Program-made: the position numbers and the translations under genes
IMG/VR virus record: IMGVR_UViG_3300008517_000002
Location: 1-49,254 of that record
Strand: one strand, 5' to 3'
DNA length: 49,254 bases
DNA from: a virus
Part shown: positions 3,709-46,835 of the stretch, piece by piece
Layout: each line of letters begins with the position of its first letter
Position numbering within the stretch: the stretch's first letter is position 1
The notes under the pieces: generated by a model
Told to the model about the DNA's origin: nothing
The model's database searches: none
Seen by the model: only the letters and a program-made list of their open reading frames with translations

Positions 3709-3867
3709 ATGGAATTACGGTGTGAATGCGGAAATGAATATGATTTTTATTCAGTAACTACGGCAAGTTTTATAGTAGATGCCGAGGGCAACAGGGAAGA
3801 AAAACTTGATGAGAATACACATTATTATTGTCTTGATTGTGATAAAGAAGTATTTATGGGAGAATAA
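3709..3867 (+). CDS. Zinc-ribbon-like protein, 52 aa
   Basis: This short frame starts 3 bases after the previous stop. It has CEC near residue 5-7 and CLDC near residues 41-44, which suggests a fourth zinc ribbon in a row. It ends 1 base before the next gene's ATG, for which it supplies the GGGAGAA site. Confidence 0.65.
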   Translation: MELRCECGNEYDFYSVTTASFIVDAEGNREEKLDENTHYYCLDCDKEVFMGE

Positions 3868-3868
3868 A

Positions 3869-4531
3869 ATGAACTATTATAAATTGACAAATCAAAAAAT
3901 GCAAACCCATAACGGTTTTCAATGGACATTAAAAAAATGGGTTCGTACTTCCGGCAGGGGTGCATTGTGTACTTCTGGATGGTTACATTGTTATAATCAC
4001 CCCCTGTTAGCTGTATTATTTAACCCAATTCACGCCGGTATTGAAAATCCTCGATTATTCGAGGTAGGTATTAAAGGTAAAAGGAAAACCGACAGGGGGT
4101 TAAAATTTGGATTTACCCAAATGCGGCTAATAAAAGAATTACCGTTCTCGCAAATTACACGGATTCAAAAAATAGCATTCACTATTTTGTGTGTAAAAGA
4201 GATTTATAAAAATGAGGGCTGGAACCAATGGGCGGATAATTGGTTGTCGGGAAAAGATAGAAGTAATGACGCTGCTTATGATGCTACTGATGCTGCTACT
4301 GCTGCTGCTGCTTATACTACTGCTGCTGCTTATGCTGCTTATGCTTATACTACTGCTGATACTGCTGCTACTGCTGCTGCTTATGCTGCTTATGCTGTTA
4401 CTACTGCTGCTGCTCCTGTTTATGCTAATGCTGCTGCTGATGTTACTTATGCTAATGCTGCTGCTTATGCTGCTTATGCTGTTGATGTTCTAAATTTGAT
4501 TAAGTTAGCAAAAAAAGCTATGGAATATTAA
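3869..4531 (+). CDS. Phage protein with Ala/Tyr/Thr low-complexity repeat tail, 220 aa
   Basis: I place the start at ATG 3869, just after GGGAGAATAAA, rather than at an upstream codon that would overlap the previous gene. The first 130 residues form a globular domain starting MNYYKLTNQKMQTHNGFQW with Cys, Trp and His conserved around GWLHCYNHPLLAVLFNP. I recognise this type from other phages, where it is uncharacterised. Residues 135-205 are an Ala-rich tract with Tyr, Thr and Asp, encoded by tandem GCT-rich codons. In other phages the family also carries such Ala tracts. The end is basic and hydrophobic. Confidence 0.7.
   Translation: MNYYKLTNQKMQTHNGFQWTLKKWVRTSGRGALCTSGWLHCYNHPLLAVLFNPIHAGIENPRLFEVGIKGKRKTDRGLKFGFTQMRLIKELPFSQITRIQKIAFTILCVKEIYKNEGWNQWADNWLSGKDRSNDAAYDATDAATAAAAYTTAAAYAAYAYTTADTAATAAAYAAYAVTTAAAPVYANAAADVTYANAAAYAAYAVDVLNLIKLAKKAMEY
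4271..4483 (+). repeat. GCT-rich trinucleotide repeat tract inside a coding region
   Basis: About 70 codons, most of them GCT, alternate with TAT, ACT, GAT, GTT and AAT. Sub-repeats such as GCTGCTTATGCTGCTTATGCT occur several times. It is in frame with the 220-residue protein and codes for Ala/Tyr/Thr. The lack of synonymous change in the Ala codons suggests recent expansion by slippage. Confidence 0.85.
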
Positions 4532-4716: not shown

Positions 4717-4929
4717 ATGAAATTAGCAAAATATTTGGCGGATTATATTAACTACGATTTAGAAGAAAATGATTATCACGCAGATGGTGGTTATTTTACT
4801 GACGCAGACTTAATTCGTGGTGGTATTGAAGTATTTGAATCGACCGAGGGTGTTGAGGTGTTGGTTGTAAACGAGAAAATAGCAGAAACAATAAAACAGG
4901 CAATACAAGATGCGGAGAATAGTAAATGA
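4717..4929 (+). CDS. Small acidic hypothetical protein, 70 aa
   Basis: Starts one base after the previous stop, with GGGGAATTGAT upstream. The 70-residue acidic product contains a Tyr/Asp-rich N-terminus and a C-terminal helix. It overlaps the next gene by 4 bases. Function unknown. Confidence 0.65.
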   Translation: MKLAKYLADYINYDLEENDYHADGGYFTDADLIRGGIEVFESTEGVEVLVVNEKIAETIKQAIQDAENSK

Positions 4930-5090
4930 ATCAACAAATCAAACTAAACGAAAGAGCATCCTTAAATCGGCCAGCTTGGACAAGTGAATCGAGTACGGGG
5001 CTGTGGGATGCGTATAGGCATTTGCACGTGGGAACGAAGGATAGGTCGGTAGTGAAAGATTATTTTGATAAGTCAAAGGGTAAAAAATGA
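4926..5090 (+). CDS. Small hypothetical protein, 54 aa
   Basis: Joined to both neighbours by ATGA-type overlaps. The 54 residues contain WTSESSTGLWDAYRHLH and a Lys-rich end. Its codon use is less AT-biased than its neighbours (several CGG, GGG and CTG codons). Function unknown. Confidence 0.6.
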   Translation: MNQQIKLNERASLNRPAWTSESSTGLWDAYRHLHVGTKDRSVVKDYFDKSKGKK

Positions 5091-5290
5091 AATATCCACA
5101 AATAGTAGAAAAAGCTCGATTTGAAGCAGTCGAATCAGGTGAACCACAAATTATTTATGAAGCTCGACCGAAGGGTAAAGTGAGCTATGGGTACAGCACG
5201 CAGGAAGAATTTAATCAGATACTTGAATCAGGTAAATTTCCGATAATCCGATTGTTGTTATGTTATCCGGATGGGATAGTGGTACAATGA
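5087..5290 (+). CDS. Small hypothetical protein, 67 aa
   Basis: Starts in an ATGA overlap and ends overlapping the next ATG. The 67-residue product has a C-terminal stretch of hydrophobic residues interrupted by Pro (IIRLLLCYPDGIVV). No family recognised. Confidence 0.6.
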   Translation: MKYPQIVEKARFEAVESGEPQIIYEARPKGKVSYGYSTQEEFNQILESGKFPIIRLLLCYPDGIVVQ

Positions 5291-5421
5291 TGACCACTCT
5301 AATCACTGATTATGATAAAGAATGGCTTTTATGGGCTGAATTATTTGCTAAATTTTGGCCAAAAGCGTGGCTTAATGATTTAGCTGAAATGGCCGATAGG
5401 ATGCTTTTAACATTTGGCTGA
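5287..5421 (+). CDS. Small Trp/Leu-rich protein, 44 aa
   Basis: ATGATG at 5287 overlaps the previous stop. The 44 residues are rich in Trp, Leu and Ala with alternating charges and could form an amphipathic helix. About 100 bases without a convincing gene follow (5422-5523), containing only AT-rich sequence with GTGAAAAATG-type near repeats. Function unknown. Confidence 0.5.
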   Translation: MMTTLITDYDKEWLLWAELFAKFWPKAWLNDLAEMADRMLLTFG

Positions 5422-5523
5422 TTGGATTTTATAGGACATTAAAAAATATTTTGAAAAATGTGCGAATAATGTGAAAAATGGGGCAAATAGGTGATTATTA
5501 GAGCTATAAATGGAAGGATAAAA

Positions 5524-5907
5524 ATGAGATGCGGAATTACTAAAGATGAAATTAAATGCTATCGATTACGGCATCATAATTTTAAGGGATTAACCACAAT
5601 AGAAACAGCCAGAAAAATGAATATTACAGTTGAAAAAGTAAGACGACTATTAAAAAGTTTAAGAGCTAAAGCTCCGCAATTATTTCCTATTCTTACATAT
5701 CGACAATATCTTGTTTATTGGTTATATGTAAAAAAGGGATTGTCAATGTATGAGATTGCCCTTTATTTACGCACTTCATATTCAAACGTATGGGGTTTAT
5801 TAAATAAGGCAAAGAAAAAGGGTATGCCGTTCCCTAAATTATGTGGACTCGGAGATATGGCATCTTATGAAGAAGGAATGGACAATTATATTATACGGAA
5901 ATTTTAG
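5524..5907 (+). CDS. Helix-turn-helix DNA-binding protein, 127 aa
   Basis: The ATG at 5524 follows AAGGATAAA; a GTG at 5491 is a weaker alternative. Two helix-turn-helix-like segments can be seen, near residues 26-47 (TTIETARKMNITVEKVRRLL) and 81-103 (LSMYEIALYLRTSYSNVWGL), both with the Ala/Ile-x3-Gly/Asn-like turns found in sigma-4 and transposase HTH domains. It is basic and probably a transcription regulator or other DNA-binding factor acting on phage genes. It is the only clear regulator candidate in the early block, and the inverted repeat at its stop codon may be its own target. Confidence 0.6.
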   Translation: MRCGITKDEIKCYRLRHHNFKGLTTIETARKMNITVEKVRRLLKSLRAKAPQLFPILTYRQYLVYWLYVKKGLSMYEIALYLRTSYSNVWGLLNKAKKKGMPFPKLCGLGDMASYEEGMDNYIIRKF

Positions 5908-5986
5908 GGAGAAAAGTTAATGTTGAGACGCAACGAAAATAATAATATAATAAAAAGTTGGAACGGTCAGTTAACTTTCTCCCTAA
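5904..5986 (+). promoter_or_regulatory. Inverted repeat that can hide a ribosome binding site
   Basis: TTAGGGAGAAAAGTTAA at 5904-5920 and TTAACTTTCTCCCTAA at 5971-5986 are complementary except for one base in the A/T run. The left arm holds the stop codon of the HTH gene and the GGGAG site of the short frame at 5920. Pairing in RNA would hide that site; in DNA the arms could be operator half-sites. Confidence 0.6.
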
Positions 5987-6015
5987 CGATGTTGATACAC
6001 ACGGACTTAAATTAG
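5920..6015 (+). CDS. Possible 31-aa peptide inside the inverted repeat
   Basis: An ATG 7-8 bases after GGGAGAAAAG opens a 31-residue frame ending TAG 6013-6015. The peptide has no recognisable motif. The strong ribosome binding site favours translation, but the frame is short and its DNA may be conserved for the inverted repeat instead. It could be a leader peptide for the nucleotide cassette that follows 12 bases later. Confidence 0.35.
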   Translation: MLRRNENNNIIKSWNGQLTFSLTMLIHTDLN

Positions 6016-6027
6016 AGAAGTTGTAAT

Positions 6028-6402
6028 ATGCACGATAGCGGGAAACGAGAAAAATTTAGTACAGGTGCAGTACGGGATACAGCAGAAGATAAAGCTCGAC
6101 CTGATTTAATTTCACCGTATGCACAGATGCGTAAAGGTGAATGGCTACGACTTGGAGCATTAAAATATGCTGAACGTAATTGGGAAAAGGGTATGAAAAT
6201 CAGCCGATGTATAGCATCTATGGAACGCCATTTGCAGGAATATAAAATGGGCTTATTGAATGAAGATCATCTGGCCGCTATTGCTGTAAATGCCGAGTTT
6301 ATTATGCACTATGAGAAAATGATTGAAATGGGCCTATTGCCCGCTGATTTAGATGATATGCCGAAGTATGAGCAGCAAGAACCAAAAGGAGCAATAATAT
6401 GA
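6028..6402 (+). CDS. dATP/dGTP diphosphohydrolase-like protein (DUF5664/MazZ-type), 124 aa
   Basis: The sequence shows the signature of the phage dATP/dGTP diphosphohydrolase N-terminal family: SGKREKFSTGAVRDT (residues 4-18), DLISP (26-30), ALKYAERNWEKG (44-55), RHLQEY (67-72), then EDHLAAIAVNAEF (79-91). Members are all-alpha MazG-like enzymes that hydrolyse dNTPs to dNMP and pyrophosphate, with acidic residues binding metal. The length is typical. It is the first gene of a four-gene nucleotide cassette and overlaps the next gene by 4 bases. A related protein, MazZ, works with PurZ in Z-genome phages, but no purZ is present here, so adjusting host dNTPs is more likely. Confidence 0.75.
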   Translation: MHDSGKREKFSTGAVRDTAEDKARPDLISPYAQMRKGEWLRLGALKYAERNWEKGMKISRCIASMERHLQEYKMGLLNEDHLAAIAVNAEFIMHYEKMIEMGLLPADLDDMPKYEQQEPKGAII

Positions 6403-6794
6403 GATTCTACCTTTCTCATTCAATTCGTGGCAAATATGGTAAGGATGCTATGCCTACGCAGATAAAAGAGAACTGCGATAAGATAATGAATATAGTCAGT
6501 GAGATACGTCTTAAGTTACAATCAGTAGATTTATATGTACCCGCAGAACATGAGGACTTTGTTTATATAGCATTCAGAGATAAATATCTAACCGAAAAAC
6601 AAGTTCTTGAAATTGATTGCAAGATTATCGACAAATGTGATGGTGTAATTATATACGCACCGGCTGATGACCCAATACAAGGCGGTCGAATAATAGAATA
6701 TAAACATGCCAAAGCTACTAATAAACCAGTATATGTATTTGAACATATTAATGAAGTTGTTTCGTGGTTAGCACAGCAGATAATGAGGGCATAA
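6399..6794 (+). CDS. Nucleoside 2-deoxyribosyltransferase-like protein, 131 aa
   Basis: The fold signature is that of the NDT/TIR-like Rossmann group: YLSHSIRG at the N-terminus, a middle strand CDGVIIYAPADDP (about residues 83-95), then GGRIIEYKHAKATNKPVYVF with the Glu expected to be the nucleophile of deoxyribosyltransferases. Members cleave or exchange the N-glycosidic bond of deoxynucleosides or nucleotides. Many phages carry similar short proteins of unproven substrate. ATGA overlap with the diphosphohydrolase suggests a joint pathway. The family call is good; the reaction is inference. Confidence 0.65.
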   Translation: MRFYLSHSIRGKYGKDAMPTQIKENCDKIMNIVSEIRLKLQSVDLYVPAEHEDFVYIAFRDKYLTEKQVLEIDCKIIDKCDGVIIYAPADDPIQGGRIIEYKHAKATNKPVYVFEHINEVVSWLAQQIMRA

Positions 6795-6795
6795 T

Positions 6796-7488
6796 ATGAG
6801 AATTTTAGATATTTCTGATTTGCATGAACCATGTAGCCGGAAGGGTGCGTTAGCTTTTTGTAAAGATTTACGCCGAAAATATAAAACAACGCATACTATC
6901 TTCAGCGGAGACGTAACTGATTGGCACAGCATTAGTTTTCATGCCCATCATCCCGAAATGCCGGGGCCAAAAGACGAATATGAATTGGCCTTTAAAAATA
7001 TACAGAAATGGTATAAAACATTTCCTAAAGCAGATGTCGTACTCGGAAATCATGATAGGCGTGTAATACGGCTCGCTGAATCAGTTAATATACCCGCACG
7101 TTTTATAAGAAATTATAAGGACATCTGGAAAACTCCTAATTGGACATGGGCTGATAGTTTTATTTATGATGAAATTTATTTTGTACATGGTGATGGTTGT
7201 GGCTCAGGATTATACCCTGCTTTTAATCTTGTACGTCAAATGGGTATGTCTGTTTGTATCGGCCACCACCATTCAGCCGGTGGAGTTAAATGGCTTGTGA
7301 ACCCATTACGTAGAATGTTTGGCCTTGATGTCGGTGCTCTAATTGATGACAAGGCAATGGCATTTGCTTATGGTAAACAGGCAACAAAGCGTTCTGTTTT
7401 AGGTGCTGCTGTTATATTAGATGGCACTCCGATACATATCCCGATGCCATGCGGCAGGGGGGAGAAATATCATGATAGCAGATTCTAA
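6796..7488 (+). CDS. Calcineurin-like metallophosphoesterase, 230 aa
   Basis: All metal-binding motifs of the family are visible: D8-x-H10, G38-D39, G84-N85-H86-D87, H131 and the G-H-H-H at 156-159. The family cleaves phosphomonoesters or diesters with two bound metals. Substrates in phages vary (nucleotides, 2',3'-cyclic ends). It lies between a deoxyribosyltransferase-like gene and a HAD phosphatase and overlaps the latter by 17 bases, so a nucleotide substrate is plausible. Full length with no signal peptide, so cytoplasmic. Confidence 0.85.
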   Translation: MRILDISDLHEPCSRKGALAFCKDLRRKYKTTHTIFSGDVTDWHSISFHAHHPEMPGPKDEYELAFKNIQKWYKTFPKADVVLGNHDRRVIRLAESVNIPARFIRNYKDIWKTPNWTWADSFIYDEIYFVHGDGCGSGLYPAFNLVRQMGMSVCIGHHHSAGGVKWLVNPLRRMFGLDVGALIDDKAMAFAYGKQATKRSVLGAAVILDGTPIHIPMPCGRGEKYHDSRF

Positions 7489-7852
7489 AATGCTAAGTCA
7501 AAGACCAATTGATAAAATAGCAGTTATAGATTTTGATGGGACTCTTTGTAAGTTCGCATTCCCTGATGTTGGCCCGATTGAGCCAAATGTAAAAGAAGCA
7601 TTAGAAACATTAAAAGCTGCTGGTTATACGATAAAGATTCATTCGTGTAGGACTGCAACTTATTGGGGTCGGGAAGGTGAACGTGGAGTACATACAAAAA
7701 TAATATTAGAATTTATGGAAAAATATAATCTGCCCTATGATGAGATTATAACGTCCCCATCAATGGATAAACCCATTGCAGATGTATATATCGATGATAG
7801 GGGAATCGGGTATAAAAATAACTGGTTAGAAATTGCGAGGAGATTAACATGA
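7472..7852 (+). CDS. HAD-superfamily phosphatase, 126 aa
   Basis: The ATG at 7472, after GGGGGGAGAAATATC, is chosen over an upstream start inside the previous gene. The HAD motifs are DFDGTL near residues 20-25 (Asp nucleophile and acid/base), HSCR near 57-60, and DVYIDDRGI near 105-113. No large cap domain fits, so this is a small capless phosphatase, similar to phage 5'-nucleotidase or polynucleotide 3'-phosphatase types. It ends the nucleotide cassette and overlaps the next gene by 4 bases. Confidence 0.8.
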   Translation: MIADSKMLSQRPIDKIAVIDFDGTLCKFAFPDVGPIEPNVKEALETLKAAGYTIKIHSCRTATYWGREGERGVHTKIILEFMEKYNLPYDEIITSPSMDKPIADVYIDDRGIGYKNNWLEIARRLT

Positions 7853-8103
7853 GTTTAAAAATTACAATTAAAGCGTATAAAAAAGTAGAAGATAAAATAA
7901 CTGTTGATGATGTTAAACCAGGAATGGTTTTTAAATATGATAATGGAATAACAGGTTTAAAACTTTATGATGGAGAAGTGGTTTTATTAAAATATTCGCA
8001 TGAAAATAATTGGCTTAAAATATCTGATGGTTCTATGGATTATTATGGTGTAGAAATTCTTGGCCGTTTGGATGAAATAATAGTGGTACAAAATAATGGC
8101 TAA
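7849..8103 (+). CDS. Hypothetical protein, 84 aa
   Basis: Coupled to the HAD gene by ATGA. A likely all-beta protein: short strands with Lys/Val alternation, then VKPGMVFKYDN and a repeated Gly/Tyr turn pattern. No family recognised. Confidence 0.6.
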   Translation: MSLKITIKAYKKVEDKITVDDVKPGMVFKYDNGITGLKLYDGEVVLLKYSHENNWLKISDGSMDYYGVEILGRLDEIIVVQNNG

Positions 8104-9209: not shown

Positions 9210-9373
9210 TGAGAAAGAAAAGAAAAATACATTATGCCCGTAATTGGGCTTTTAATATAGTGTGTAGGGTACATCATTTTACCTATCTTGATTATACTTT
9301 CAATAAACGAAGGGTTACTTGTAAAAGGTGTCGTAAAACAGAACAGTATAAAACAGGAAAAACTATTAAATGA
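9209..9373 (+). CDS. Small basic Cys-containing protein, 54 aa
   Basis: TAATG overlap at the start. Strongly basic, with Cys near residue 19 and CKRC near residues 38-41, so a small zinc knuckle is possible, and nucleic-acid binding is likely from charge. It overlaps the polymerase start by 4 bases. Confidence 0.6.
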   Translation: MRKKRKIHYARNWAFNIVCRVHHFTYLDYTFNKRRVTCKRCRKTEQYKTGKTIK

Positions 9374-11511
9374 CCTGGCTTGATGTATTAAAACAAATTA
9401 ATTGGCCCACTGAAACTCTGATGATAGACTTCGAGACGTATTTCGACACAGATTATTCTCTATCTAAGATGTCCACTGTGGAGTACATTACGGATTCTCG
9501 ATTTGAGTTCATTGGTCTGGGCTTTGAGATTCTAAATCACTCGAAGGCAAATGGTCCAGTTTTTATTCCAGGCCCAGATGTACCCTGGGCAGTCAGGCGA
9601 CTTAAAAAAATATTCGGTAAGGCATTTCATAACTGTACAGTAGTTGCTAAAAATTGCAAATTTGATATTCTAATATTATTAGAAAAATTTGGAATCAATC
9701 CACCATTTATAATTGATATAGAAGATCTATCGAGATTTTATGATTCCAGAATGTCGCAGAAACTTAAAGATCTGGCCCTAATGTTTAACCTGGAAGCAAA
9801 GGGCGATACAAAACAATTTAAGGGGCAACATTGGGAAGATATGGATCATCAGGCAATGAAAGAATATAATCTTGGAGATATTAGAAATGAAAATGCCCTT
9901 TTACAAATTTTATTACCAATTGTTAATAACCCTGAATTTGAAATCCCTCTCGCTCGGCATACGCTCGGAATGTATTTGTCTCCGCATTTTCGGCTGGATT
10001 ATGCACTTGCTAATAATCTTACATTACAAATGGAACAGGAACTTTTGGCGGCGGTTAAACAAACTGGCCACACGAAAAAAGAAATAAGTGGCACACTCAG
10101 CTTCACTGAACTCCTGATCAATGTTTTACCTAATAGAGAGAAAATACCAGTCAAAGCTGGGAAACCAGGAAAAAACATGGTTAAACTTTTGGGACAACCC
10201 GGAGTTGTGCCCGCTTTTGCAAAAACTGATGAAGGATTCAAGCAATTATTAAATCACACTAATGGGAATGTGCGTATTCTGATGCAAGCTAAAGTAGCAT
10301 CTAAATCCTGGCCGGGGCATATTAAACGGATACAATCTTTAATGGCCCAATGCAAAGCGTCAAATGATCTGCTTCGTGTACCCTTAAAATATTATGGTGC
10401 ACATACTGGGCGTTGGTCTGGTACTGAGAAGATCAATGTACAGAATTTTGGTGGCCGGGGTCGGGGAGCAGAAGTACATTCGTTAATCAGGAAAATGCGT
10501 AATATGTTAATAGCACCAGAAACTGAGACATTGGCAATTACTGATTCAGCACAAATAGAAGCCAGAATTCTTGCTTGGATCGCTGGTCAAACTGATTTAA
10601 CTGAAGGATTTAGAAATGGAGAAGATATTTACTCAGTGTTTGCAAGTAGGTTGTTTAATTGTGGTGTGCATAAGCCTACTGATAATGATTCTGAAGAACA
10701 AAAAGGAATTCTTAAAATAAAACGTGGATTTGGCAAAGATGGAATTCTTGGCTCAGGTTATGGGATGGGTCCAGTTAAATTTTATTTAAATTGTATTGTA
10801 AATAATGGTTTACGCCCATTATTTAAAGAACCATCTACACTTGATGGAGAATTATTAAAAAAAATAATGCGACAACATACTAAGGATTTGATGTTATGTG
10901 GTCTTGAAAATTATATAGTACCAGAATCAGGAAAATATGATGAAAAATTTATAGCATATCTTATATTAGCATATCGTACTAAATATGCCAGGATTCCAGA
11001 GTTCTGGACCCGCATAGAAAAAGCATTTAGATATGTAATTAAATATCCGAGAGAAGTTGCAACTATTCATATACGTGGTAAAACTGTATCTTTTAAGAAA
11101 CATATTACTGCATCCGATGATTCATTTAATCCGGGTTTTAAATTCTGGAAATCGGGCAACACAGTTCATCTACAGTTACCATCAGGCCGGGTATTGAATT
11201 ATCGACATGCTCATCTGGATAAAAAAGGTACTATTAAATATCATTGGGGACATCTTTGGGGTGGAGCAATCACGGAAAATGTAGTTCAAGCAATTGCCAG
11301 AGATCTATTGGGTTATTGGATTTTAGAATGTGAACGAGAAATCGGTCCGGTTATATTACATTCTCATGATGAGATAGTGTGTATGGTTGATAAATCAGAA
11401 GCTATGGATAAACTATCAGAAATGATTGATATATTTTCTACCGGTCCTGATTGGGCCGATGGTTTGCCGCTTTCGGCTGAGGGCCAATTGACAGAGATGT
11501 ACATAAAATAG
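9370..11511 (+). CDS. Family A DNA polymerase with 3'-5' exonuclease
   Basis: The replicative polymerase, 713 residues. The N-terminal DnaQ-like proofreading domain shows exo I D20-F-E22, exo II around N95-x3-FD, and exo III Y166-x3-D170. The polymerase domain shows GRWSGTEKINVQNF (about 347-360), motif A DSAQIEARI (392-400), motif B K-RGFGKDGILGSGYG (about 449-464) and motif C HSHDEI near residue 665. All catalytic acids are present, so it should be active. The size is close to T7 gp5. It overlaps the preceding tiny gene by 4 bases and heads the replication genes. Confidence 0.95.
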   Translation: MTWLDVLKQINWPTETLMIDFETYFDTDYSLSKMSTVEYITDSRFEFIGLGFEILNHSKANGPVFIPGPDVPWAVRRLKKIFGKAFHNCTVVAKNCKFDILILLEKFGINPPFIIDIEDLSRFYDSRMSQKLKDLALMFNLEAKGDTKQFKGQHWEDMDHQAMKEYNLGDIRNENALLQILLPIVNNPEFEIPLARHTLGMYLSPHFRLDYALANNLTLQMEQELLAAVKQTGHTKKEISGTLSFTELLINVLPNREKIPVKAGKPGKNMVKLLGQPGVVPAFAKTDEGFKQLLNHTNGNVRILMQAKVASKSWPGHIKRIQSLMAQCKASNDLLRVPLKYYGAHTGRWSGTEKINVQNFGGRGRGAEVHSLIRKMRNMLIAPETETLAITDSAQIEARILAWIAGQTDLTEGFRNGEDIYSVFASRLFNCGVHKPTDNDSEEQKGILKIKRGFGKDGILGSGYGMGPVKFYLNCIVNNGLRPLFKEPSTLDGELLKKIMRQHTKDLMLCGLENYIVPESGKYDEKFIAYLILAYRTKYARIPEFWTRIEKAFRYVIKYPREVATIHIRGKTVSFKKHITASDDSFNPGFKFWKSGNTVHLQLPSGRVLNYRHAHLDKKGTIKYHWGHLWGGAITENVVQAIARDLLGYWILECEREIGPVILHSHDEIVCMVDKSEAMDKLSEMIDIFSTGPDWADGLPLSAEGQLTEMYIK

Positions 11512-29285: not shown

Positions 29286-30353
29286 TTATTTCTCCCCAAT
29301 TAAAATTTTCTCGAATATTTCTTTTATTGTTTTACCGACTTGTTCCATATTAAATTCTTTTTCTGCTATCTTACGTATTATATCATGAACTGTTTGTCTA
29401 TCATGTTTTATATCTTGATAACATTTTTCAATTGCATCAACAAATCCATCTATATCTTTTGGATGTGCAGTATATGGTGTATACGGATTCCCAGTTGCCG
29501 CTACAATGGGACACCCTGATGCCATTGCTTCTCTAACTGTTCTGGATGCCAATACATGTGGCGTCACTATCATATCAGCCGCTCTATAAACTTCATCTAA
29601 AAAAGGAACCGCAGGAAAACAACTTCCCACTAAATCCGCTTTTTGGAGAGCTAAAAGAGTCCTGTTTACTGGCCCGTCATTTTTAGGATATTTTTCATTG
29701 TCCTTTGGTGTTCCAAATATATGTACCCTTGCTGACGGATGTTTGTCTCTTACCCATTTTGCTGCGGCAAATAGAACGGAATATGGCGTAACATATTCTG
29801 TTCGCCATACATTTGTTATTACAATATTAAAATCACCAGTTTTTTTTGATTCCCATTTAAATTTTTTTCCATTGGGATTAAATTTATCCAAATCAACAGG
29901 TGGCGGACAATAACAAATATTCGCACCAGGTAACATTATTTCCCAATTAAAAATATTTTGTTTCCAAAACGTTACGCATGCTTTATATTTTAATATTTCA
30001 TGTGAGACAATAAGTTCTTTTAATGTACGAGTTTTGCCCGTATGTTCAAGTAAAAAACTATATTCAGGTGCTCCATGCAGGCACATTACGATAGGTATAC
30101 CTTTTTCATAAATCCTTTTTGGAATGGCTGAATGTCGTACCAATATATCCGCTTTAAGTGCCCATTCCGGTGAAACTGTTTCAATGTCACCATCTTTACA
30201 CCAAACTCTTGAAGAATTTTCTGGTTTACCCGCTCCATAATCAATCATTTGAGAATCTATTCCGACTTTTCGTTCTGCTAAAATTAGATCCCTTGCTGTT
30301 TCATAGATTCCTGCGGCATGTGGAGCGAATTGGACGAAGTGTCCTATCTTCAT
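29286..30353 (-). CDS. Glycosyltransferase, GT-B fold (GT4-like), 355 aa
   Basis: ATG after GTAGGAGCCTAAT. The N-terminal Rossmann part has MKIGHFVQFAPHAAGIYETARDL. The C-terminal donor-binding domain has VIVTNVWRTEY-type strands and the E-x7-E-like motif region VREAMASGCPIVAATGN with Glu near residue 275. The family transfers a sugar from an activated donor. It is placed inside the tail genes, so a virion protein or the host surface (receptor blocking) may be the acceptor. DNA glycosylation is less likely from this context. Confidence 0.8.
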   Translation of the reverse strand: MKIGHFVQFAPHAAGIYETARDLILAERKVGIDSQMIDYGAGKPENSSRVWCKDGDIETVSPEWALKADILVRHSAIPKRIYEKGIPIVMCLHGAPEYSFLLEHTGKTRTLKELIVSHEILKYKACVTFWKQNIFNWEIMLPGANICYCPPPVDLDKFNPNGKKFKWESKKTGDFNIVITNVWRTEYVTPYSVLFAAAKWVRDKHPSARVHIFGTPKDNEKYPKNDGPVNRTLLALQKADLVGSCFPAVPFLDEVYRAADMIVTPHVLASRTVREAMASGCPIVAATGNPYTPYTAHPKDIDGFVDAIEKCYQDIKHDRQTVHDIIRKIAEKEFNMEQVGKTIKEIFEKILIGEK

Positions 30354-44784: not shown

Positions 44785-45504
44785 TTAGCTGGCATTTTCT
44801 AATTCTCTTTCTGCTTTATAAATATTTACCACAAGTCGACAAATATTAGAAGGAATTACCAAGCTAATATTATCGTAATAACCATACCCGCCAACTAAAA
44901 CTCCGACCACACGACCTTGCATATTATATACAGGACCACCTGAATTCCCTGAAAACGAAGCAGAATCACTTTGAATCATTAATTTCTCACCAAAAAAATC
45001 AATATCACGTTTTAATCCAGATATAATTCCAGCAGTTACTGTATTAAATAAATTAAAACCAAGCGGGGAGCCAATTATAAAAACTTCTTCACCCTTACGT
45101 AAATTGTCTGAATTTCCTATATGGGAAAATGGTAGTTTTTCTGCATCAATCTGGATTAAGCCGACATCTGTTATATTAGACAGATAACTTTTATTACTCC
45201 AGAATTCTTGACCATCGGGTAATATAACTTTAAATGCCACAGCCCCGTCAATTACATGCCCGGCTGTAAGAACTAATCCATCAGAAGAAATTATCACTCC
45301 TGATCCAGACCAAAGACGGTCGCCATACTCATCTACAGCTTCCACATATACAACTGATGGGTCAACGGTCCGAATCAGAGAAACTAAATTAACCTGATAA
45401 GTTACAGGTTCTGGTTTAGGTCTATTGTATACTGTTGGAAAACATGCAGCGAATATCACAGCTATAGCTACTGCTATGAGCCATTTCTTCGGATCTTTAC
45501 TCAT
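44785..45504 (-). CDS. Trypsin-like serine protease (HtrA/Do type) with signal sequence, 239 aa
   Basis: ATG after AAAGGATTAAA. Residues 1-22 are a Lys-tipped hydrophobic segment ending in FAAC, either a signal anchor or a lipoprotein signal with a weak lipobox. The catalytic triad is clear: H83 in LVLTAGHVIDG, D113 in ITDVGLIQID, and S188 in SFSGNSGGPV. It has no PDZ domain, so it is a shortened HtrA-like protease acting in the periplasm or membrane. It lies in the head-gene operon. It could degrade host envelope proteins or mature the virion. Confidence 0.88.
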   Translation of the reverse strand: MSKDPKKWLIAVAIAVIFAACFPTVYNRPKPEPVTYQVNLVSLIRTVDPSVVYVEAVDEYGDRLWSGSGVIISSDGLVLTAGHVIDGAVAFKVILPDGQEFWSNKSYLSNITDVGLIQIDAEKLPFSHIGNSDNLRKGEEVFIIGSPLGFNLFNTVTAGIISGLKRDIDFFGEKLMIQSDSASFSGNSGGPVYNMQGRVVGVLVGGYGYYDNISLVIPSNICRLVVNIYKAERELENAS

Positions 45505-46110: not shown

Positions 46111-46303
46111 TTTCAATCGCCCTGTCAATATTCATCTTATTCCTTGCTTCTGCCCGTTTCCGACCCATTATCACTCCGAGATCTCGCTGTACGCCACTCT
46201 GACTCGTCAGATCCTGCACCTGTTTTACAAATGCTTCTCTGGACATGTCCTTTATCTTTAACGCATTATAAACCTGATGAATTTCCTGCAACGGCATAGT
46301 CAT
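46097..46303 (-). CDS. Small hypothetical protein, 68 aa
   Basis: ATG 46303 follows AGGAGTGCAAACCT inside the SPFH gene, better than an upstream start lacking a ribosome site. A helical protein (PLQEIHQVYNALKIKD and DLGVIMGRKRAEARNKM). Overlap with the SPFH gene suggests coupled expression. Function unknown. Confidence 0.6.
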   Translation of the reverse strand: MTMPLQEIHQVYNALKIKDMSREAFVKQVQDLTSQSGVQRDLGVIMGRKRAEARNKMNIDRAIENGRG

Positions 46304-46835
46304 AGGTTTGCACTCCTGTAATTGATTGATCGGTAAGTAATCTGATATTCTTCGTTGTACCCAGATCAGTGATATATACACGCATTATTTCCAGCCCCCA
46401 TCCACGTGCGTCCTTCTTCACGCCTTCAAGTATCTCGGCTTCAATCTGCGATATATTTAATTGTTCAATTGATTCTACCTTACTAATATATCGGCTTATA
46501 ATTCCCAGAGCGAGGGTCTGTAAACTTTTATCATAATCCTGCACTTTCAATAACGCATTCTGTGCATCACGAATCCGGTACATAATCGCTCCGCCAAAAC
46601 ACATATCCCGGCTATCTTTCGTCAACACACTCTGCACACGAAGATCTACAACCTGCGGCGTTACAGTTATTTTCGTCATCTCTTGAATCAAGGGCCAGTA
46701 AACATACCAACCAGATGAAGTAAGATGCACTCGATTCCCCAGAGTTACTCGCACACCACCTTCATCTGGAGATACAAGCCAAATTCTCGGTATCCAGCAT
46801 AACAATCGGTCCAGTAACTGAGTTAGCCAGTTCAT
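46266..46835 (-). CDS. SPFH/Band-7 (stomatin, prohibitin, HflK/C-like) protein, 189 aa
   Basis: The N-terminus has a short hydrophobic stretch (LLDRLLCWIPRIWLV). It then shows the SPFH pattern: EGGVRVTLGNRVHLTSSGWYVYWPL, TVTPQVVDLRVQSVLTKD, MYRIRDAQNALLKV and the end of the domain with LEIMRVYITDLG (about residues 145-160). Such proteins form membrane-bound rings that hold proteases or channels. This one lacks the long C-terminal coiled coil of HflK/C. It may shape the host inner membrane or modulate FtsH-like proteases. It overlaps the preceding membrane gene by 4 bases. Confidence 0.82.
   Translation of the reverse strand: MNWLTQLLDRLLCWIPRIWLVSPDEGGVRVTLGNRVHLTSSGWYVYWPLIQEMTKITVTPQVVDLRVQSVLTKDSRDMCFGGAIMYRIRDAQNALLKVQDYDKSLQTLALGIISRYISKVESIEQLNISQIEAEILEGVKKDARGWGLEIMRVYITDLGTTKNIRLLTDQSITGVQTYDYAVAGNSSGL

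Follow-up and report, generated by a model that had tools for sequence, protein, structure and literature searches.

The window, that is the whole stretch of 49,254 bases analysed here, is a virus record in which a cassette of four genes occupies positions 6028–7852. The features considered below, all on the + strand, are the following:

5491..5907, + strand: HTH protein with sigma-70 region-4-like motifs (PF08281, 31.3 bits)
6028..6402, + strand: gene 1 (P0001), step 1, stand-alone DUF5664 (dGTP_diPhyd_N) protein, predicted dNTP pyrophosphohydrolase (PF18909)
6399..6794, + strand: gene 2 (P0002), step 2, NDT/DNPH1-superfamily protein, predicted dNMP N-hydrolase or deoxyribose-5-phosphate transferase (AlphaFold2 fold)
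6796..7488, + strand: gene 3 (P0003), calcineurin-like metallophosphoesterase (MPE), phrog_221 (PF00149)
7472..7852, + strand: gene 4, accessory small HAD phosphatase of phrog_1238, resembling 1xpj and BT0820 (1xpj similarity)
7849..8103, + strand: ORF of 84 aa, overlapping gene 4 by 4 bases
9370..11511, + strand: family A DNA polymerase (PF00476), the independent anchor used below

An earlier note on this DNA had described the four genes, and its layout is reproduced in every detail: genes 1 and 2 overlap by 4 bases (6399–6402), a single base (6795) separates genes 2 and 3, and genes 3 and 4 overlap by 17 bases (7472–7488). The families it had proposed are likewise borne out, as DUF5664, NDT-type, metallophosphoesterase and HAD. 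The ORF at 7849–8103 gave no match in a Pfam search; its overlap with gene 4 indicates that it probably belongs to the same operon, which is thus probably longer than previously stated. On the upstream side, the HTH protein is a possible regulator, found again ahead of DUF5664 in several relatives: homologues (cluster c3) lie near DUF5664 in L005, L006, L008 and L036, and a similar protein is present in L093. A search of the window for direct or inverted terminal repeats found none.

P0001 belongs to DUF5664, matching PF18909 at 61.9 bits for a Pfam cut-off of 27. The same domain is found in the DUF5664-DUF550 (MazZ-like) dATP/dGTP pyrophosphohydrolase of Acinetobacter phage SH-Ab 15497, but the DUF550 part of that enzyme (PF04447) was not detected in P0001 by the Pfam search. 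This had led to the idea of P0001 as an inert “N-terminal” domain, which was abandoned in view of the published assays on Arthrobacter phage Wayne, whose stand-alone DUF5664 protein (gp51) converts dATP, dUTP and dGTP to dNMPs (PMC12884076). The profile of the lineage DUF5664 family, the lineage being defined below, matches Wayne gp51 at 1.6e-20. P0001 is without the DxxSG loop present in other DUF5664 members. No structure could be matched with confidence to its fold model (pLDDT 81), the MazG-like chains (7ody, 2yxh, dCTPase) appearing only within helical-bundle noise; phmmer searches of P0001, P0002 and P0003 against the PDB returned nothing meaningful.

P0002 scores 20.2 bits against PF05014, under the cut-off of 28.8, and found no match by tblastn in the phage collection. 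Its AlphaFold2 model, built from 10 relatives (pLDDT 93), nevertheless displays the NDT/DNPH1 fold across its full length, with a Foldseek probability of 1.00 to 7m5h (E 2.5e-3) and a structural Z of 13.8 to 7m5h and of ~10 to MilB and DNPH1. The Tyr-(Asp/Asn)-Glu triad of this superfamily is also present: when P0002 is aligned with DmtZ (gp53 of Gordonia phage Ghobes and of Wayne), Y4-D73-E100 corresponds to the DmtZ triad Y6-N77-E103, which is catalytic (PMC12884076), with Asp in place of Asn. The NDT relatives retain the triad (10 aligned; the reading frame of L006 begins after the Tyr), as do the aligned DUF4406 proteins, except the stand-alone ones of L023 and L034, where Asp gives way to Asn or Ser. 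With such a fold and such residues, P0002 should be an active NDT/DNPH1-superfamily enzyme, as far as sequence and model can predict.

Two further residues bear on the reaction. P48 aligns with Pro57 of DmtZ, which is typical of transferases, and R10 replaces Asp12, a residue important for DmtZ and at whose site Arg is common in hydrolases (PMC12884076). DmtZ is an NDT-like enzyme which hydrolyses dAMP and makes dZMP by transfer (PMC12884076); as Arg stands at its important Asp12 position, the substrate of P0002 may not be dAMP. Wayne gp53 is picked up by the lineage NDT profile as a weak match, at 7e-4 in a set of 31 sequences. With the nucleoside 5'-monophosphate N-hydrolases DNPH1/Rcl and MilB, P0002 shares the fold, the triad and the Arg at the hydrolase-common position; it differs from them by a structure-aligned identity of ~12–23%, by the retained transferase-typical proline, and by being viral and linked to DUF5664.

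Gene 3 matches PF00149 at 32.1 bits (cut-off 21.5) and phrog_221 at 3.8e-42, and its full set of metal ligands (D8, H10, D39, N85, H86, H131, H157 and H159) is invariant; a profile search for a solved relative found none. Gene 4 is a member of the HAD superfamily, with motif I DxDGT in the form DFDGTL and a resemblance to the solved HAD protein 1xpj (8.5e-9). All its matches to the Pfam and NCBIfam HAD families are under cut-off, so that we place it in no named HAD subfamily; the PHROG name “phosphoheptose isomerase”, to which the HAD matches give no support, was not retained. Both proteins probably act on neighbouring phosphate esters.

Searches run separately with NDT, MPE, polymerase and HAD led to a lineage of related uncultured phages of ~45–50 kb. 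No useful close DNA relative of the cassette region was found among isolated phages, to which the window polymerase is at best ~25–27% identical over nearly its full length. With this polymerase as anchor, 30 records were gathered (L094–L123, ~35–53% identity), of which 8 are cut too near the gene. All 22 left have genes for both steps near the polymerase, though some of these records duplicate MPE-anchored ones exactly or nearly so; in L104 the step-2 gene is another PF05014 protein. By comparison, none of 50 polymerase loci and none of 52 MPE loci at greater distance has the pair. The conserved linkage that the earlier note proposed to look for in gene neighbourhoods is thus found for these two genes. 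Besides, DUF5664 and MPE adjoin NDT in 5 of 5 NDT-anchored records, the order DUF5664-NDT-MPE-HAD of the window recurs in L118 and L119, and L008 has all four genes in another order. The cassette is not a chance assembly, for relatives with an MPE of 48–77% identity carry these genes together as well.

For the module counts, we took 42 non-redundant loci with MPE and visible upstream sequence. Each of them has one step-1 and one step-2 gene, in the order step-1, step-2, MPE, with HAD inserted in two. Step 1 is mostly DUF5664 (33 loci), otherwise a DUF1599-like protein (phrog_1485, 5 loci), a phrog_6802-like protein (3 loci) or MazG (L031, PF03819). Step 2 is of NDT type in part of the loci, as NDT (15), DUF4406 (12) or the other PF05014 protein of L104, and of phosphatase type in the rest, as an NT5C 5'(3')-deoxyribonucleotidase (11) or an HD “dNMP phosphatase” (3). 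Fusions also occur: DUF4406 is joined to DUF5664 in 8 of the 12 DUF4406 loci (among L015–L022 and L024), and L121 is a DUF5664-NDT fusion. The independent annotations of the step-2 families all point to deoxynucleotide or dNMP chemistry (dNMP phosphatase for phrog_318, deoxyribonucleotidase for phrog_2643).

The quick MPE tree implies at least 16 step-2 changes (11 when all NDT-like types are merged) and 8 step-1 changes; these counts are descriptive, since the classes were drawn up after viewing the neighbourhoods, and could be inflated by recombination of the MPE gene itself. Closely similar MPEs are found beside different enzymes, e.g. in the pairs L012/L014, L025/L027, L023/L029 and L094/L115. 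Such repeated non-homologous replacement of each step implies that selection bears strongly on the reaction and not on any single gene. HHalign detected no homology between DUF5664, the DUF1599-like families (phrog_1485 and phrog_6802) and MazG, and we do not claim them as one family.

Two observations were made in passing on these loci. A small, conserved membrane-like protein of ~90–100 aa (cluster c16) is encoded just upstream of step 2 in L012, L025, L027 and L033; it stands between steps 1 and 2 in NT5C or HD loci and never with NDT in this sample. The different step-1 proteins of L007, L012 and L175 resemble one another in a C-terminal extension (GWYV...WPTKxAAExAL), which gives the impression of a single tail attached to unrelated domains.

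The idea of the four genes as one unit finds no support. HAD is present in 5 of the 42 loci. MPE is found in 18 of the 22 polymerase-anchored records, L110, L112, L120 and L123 being confirmed without it, and its relatives occur in 637 records of isolated phages. In the three isolates examined, MPE lies near a ribonucleotide reductase, near endonuclease VII and polynucleotide kinase, or in the late region, and no annotated partner of step-1 or step-2 type stands beside it. As the pair also occurs without MPE, what is conserved is the pairing of steps 1 and 2, to which MPE is often and HAD occasionally added, both as separable extras.

This separability could be pushed further, up to supposing that the stretch between the HTH gene and the polymerase simply gathers four unrelated accessory genes that share no function. 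In this direction go the MPEs that occur without the other three genes in cultured phages, the rarity of HAD, and the DUF5664-DUF4406 protein of Stenotrophomonas virus Jojan60, which has no neighbouring MPE. However, a mere early-gene neighbourhood hardly explains why, through many swaps, fusions and a change of viral context, every visible slot still holds one gene for each step, nor why the pair is absent from the 50 more distant polymerase relatives, and we hold it for very improbable.

The nearest characterised parallel is the PurZ0 module of Wayne and Ghobes (DUF5664-1, DmtZ and DutZ). In Wayne the genes follow the order PurZ0 (gp50), DUF5664 (gp51), gp52 and DmtZ-DutZ (gp53), so that, as in the window, a stand-alone DUF5664 protein is close to an NDT-superfamily enzyme; the triad is of the same Tyr-(Asp/Asn)-Glu type, and the predicted flow, from dNTP to dNMP to base, is identical. 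By its PF18909 score and its match to the Wayne family, P0001 also corresponds to the DUF5664, or dNTP-clearing, component of a PurZ/PurZ0 module. Apart from the papers on Z-phages and on gp48 (see below), we found none in the literature joining these families.

From this parallel one might expect a base-modification module, where a canonical dNTP is cleared, or its base exchanged in the manner of DmtZ, and a modified base enters the phage DNA. The adjacency of Wayne DUF5664 to PurZ0 and its closeness to DmtZ-DutZ, the synthesis of dZMP by DmtZ through deoxyribose-5-phosphate transfer (PMC12884076) and the “transferase” proline P48 of P0002 all go that way. Unlike Wayne and Ghobes, however, the window has neither PurZ0 nor DutZ, its pair is followed by MPE (and HAD), and predicted dNMP phosphatases replace NDT in relatives. 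PurZ/PurZ0 (PF00709) was found in 0 of 33 records including the window, with a positive control that matched in 14 of 14 genomes; DutZ/dUTPase (PF00692) in 0 of 28 long records; and thymidylate synthase, ThyX and ribonucleotide reductase in none of the 28 long lineage records. The earlier note had remarked that no modifying synthase is present, which extends to the lineage records searched and speaks against any known type of modified-base pathway. Nor does the window polymerase look close to the DpoZ of Wayne and Ghobes, the two with which it was compared (~25% over short stretches, these two DpoZ being 37% identical to each other). Finally, the predicted phosphatases that stand in for NDT in 14 of the 42 loci cannot exchange bases, so that the function common to the loci is unlikely to be base exchange. 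The making of a modified base, which the earlier note had entertained, thus appears improbable to us.

We favour another reading, to which we give a probability of about 0.65: genes 1 and 2 would form a two-step deoxynucleotide disposal, whose shared function would be the net removal of dNTPs and dNMPs and not the synthesis of a modified base. We infer its activities, substrate and purpose from the genes, the predicted fold and catalytic residues of gene 2, the linkage, the swaps and the absence of a synthase. In step 1, the DUF5664 pyrophosphohydrolase would convert one or more dNTPs to dNMP and PPi; in step 2, the NDT/DNPH1-type enzyme would split dNMP into free base and deoxyribose 5-phosphate. 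In sister phages the second step would be ensured by the predicted NT5C or HD dNMP phosphatases, giving nucleoside and Pi. On the model of phage Wayne, purines and/or dUTP would be the most plausible class to be removed. The earlier proposal of a passage from dNTP to dNMP, followed by removal or exchange of the base, is thereby strengthened: the assays of Wayne DUF5664 and of DmtZ provide its first two steps with a direct biochemical precedent (PMC12884076). The fusions of DUF5664 to NDT and to DUF4406, the pairing kept in 42 of 42 loci despite the switches and the matching annotation of the replacements speak for disposal.

Certain points count against it. Lytic phages normally enlarge the dNTP pool, and destroying dNTPs seems costly for such a phage; P0001 is deprived of the DxxSG loop and its fold model matches nothing clearly, and P0002 has Arg at the Asp12 site; and the step-1 replacements phrog_1485 and phrog_6802, in which no homology to DUF5664 or MazG was detected, are candidate equivalents only. 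Candidate purposes are the cleansing of the pool from dUTP or damaged nucleotides, the depletion of a host nucleotide, and the removal of defence-made nucleotides. The first is in keeping with the use of dUTP by Wayne DUF5664.

The third purpose touches on host immunity. Mycobacteriophage A10ZJ24 gp48, which belongs to phrog_221 and has a metallophosphoesterase domain as gene 3 does, is a phosphodiesterase for which a role in counter-defence has been published; in addition, the structure search places NDT folds near TIR/ThsB folds, and a degrade-only logic with frequent module swapping fits an arms race. The enzymes might thus destroy nucleotides of immunity (deaminated or chain-terminating ones, cyclic signals, NAD derivatives), with MPE as main effector. 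We nevertheless consider this unlikely. Gp48 is reported to act on host DNA integrity and not on signals, it is only 22% identical to gene 3, and its neighbourhood is different; PADLOC models gave 0 matches for all four proteins; the annotations of the step-2 replacements point to dNMP enzymes; and the supposed effector is missing from 4 of the 22 polymerase-anchored records. The two-step disposal itself might constitute a new, modular and degrade-only, metabolic counter-defence, retained throughout the lineage, where unrelated enzymes would alternate in the two slots because the phage has to clear particular host-made nucleotides (e.g. deaminated or otherwise faulty dNTPs produced by host defence), an extension which we regard as doubtful.

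With disposal as the preferred reading, a lineage without detectable dNTP-building enzymes retains a route that apparently destroys deoxynucleotides, and phages showing no sign of base modification join the 2-aminoadenine phages in which the partnership of DUF5664 with NDT has so far been characterised. The resulting question, which nucleotide is removed and why, is one for enzyme assays.

The pair is also found in another viral context. L092, a virus-like contig of 179 kb placed by binning in a Borrarchaeum MAG and possibly an archaeal virus, has overlapping DUF5664 and NDT genes without MPE; at 4836–6405 of this contig, a gene with a weak dUTPase_2 (MazG-like) match, DUF5664 and NDT stand in a row. 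The lineage itself includes L093, a contig of 47 kb from a Planctomycetota MAG, and this binning is a weak hint at the host.

Some other genes of the window deserve mention. On the − strand, 44785–45504 encodes a trypsin-like serine protease with an N-terminal hydrophobic stretch (PF13365, 3e-29), which is unusual in a phage; 46266–46835 a SPFH/Band 7 (stomatin-like) protein (PF01145, 4e-21), unexpected in a small phage; and 29286–30353 a group 1 glycosyltransferase (PF13692), on the strand of the structural genes. On the + strand, 3779–4531 encodes a DUF7666 protein with a long low-complexity tail rich in Ala, Tyr and Thr.
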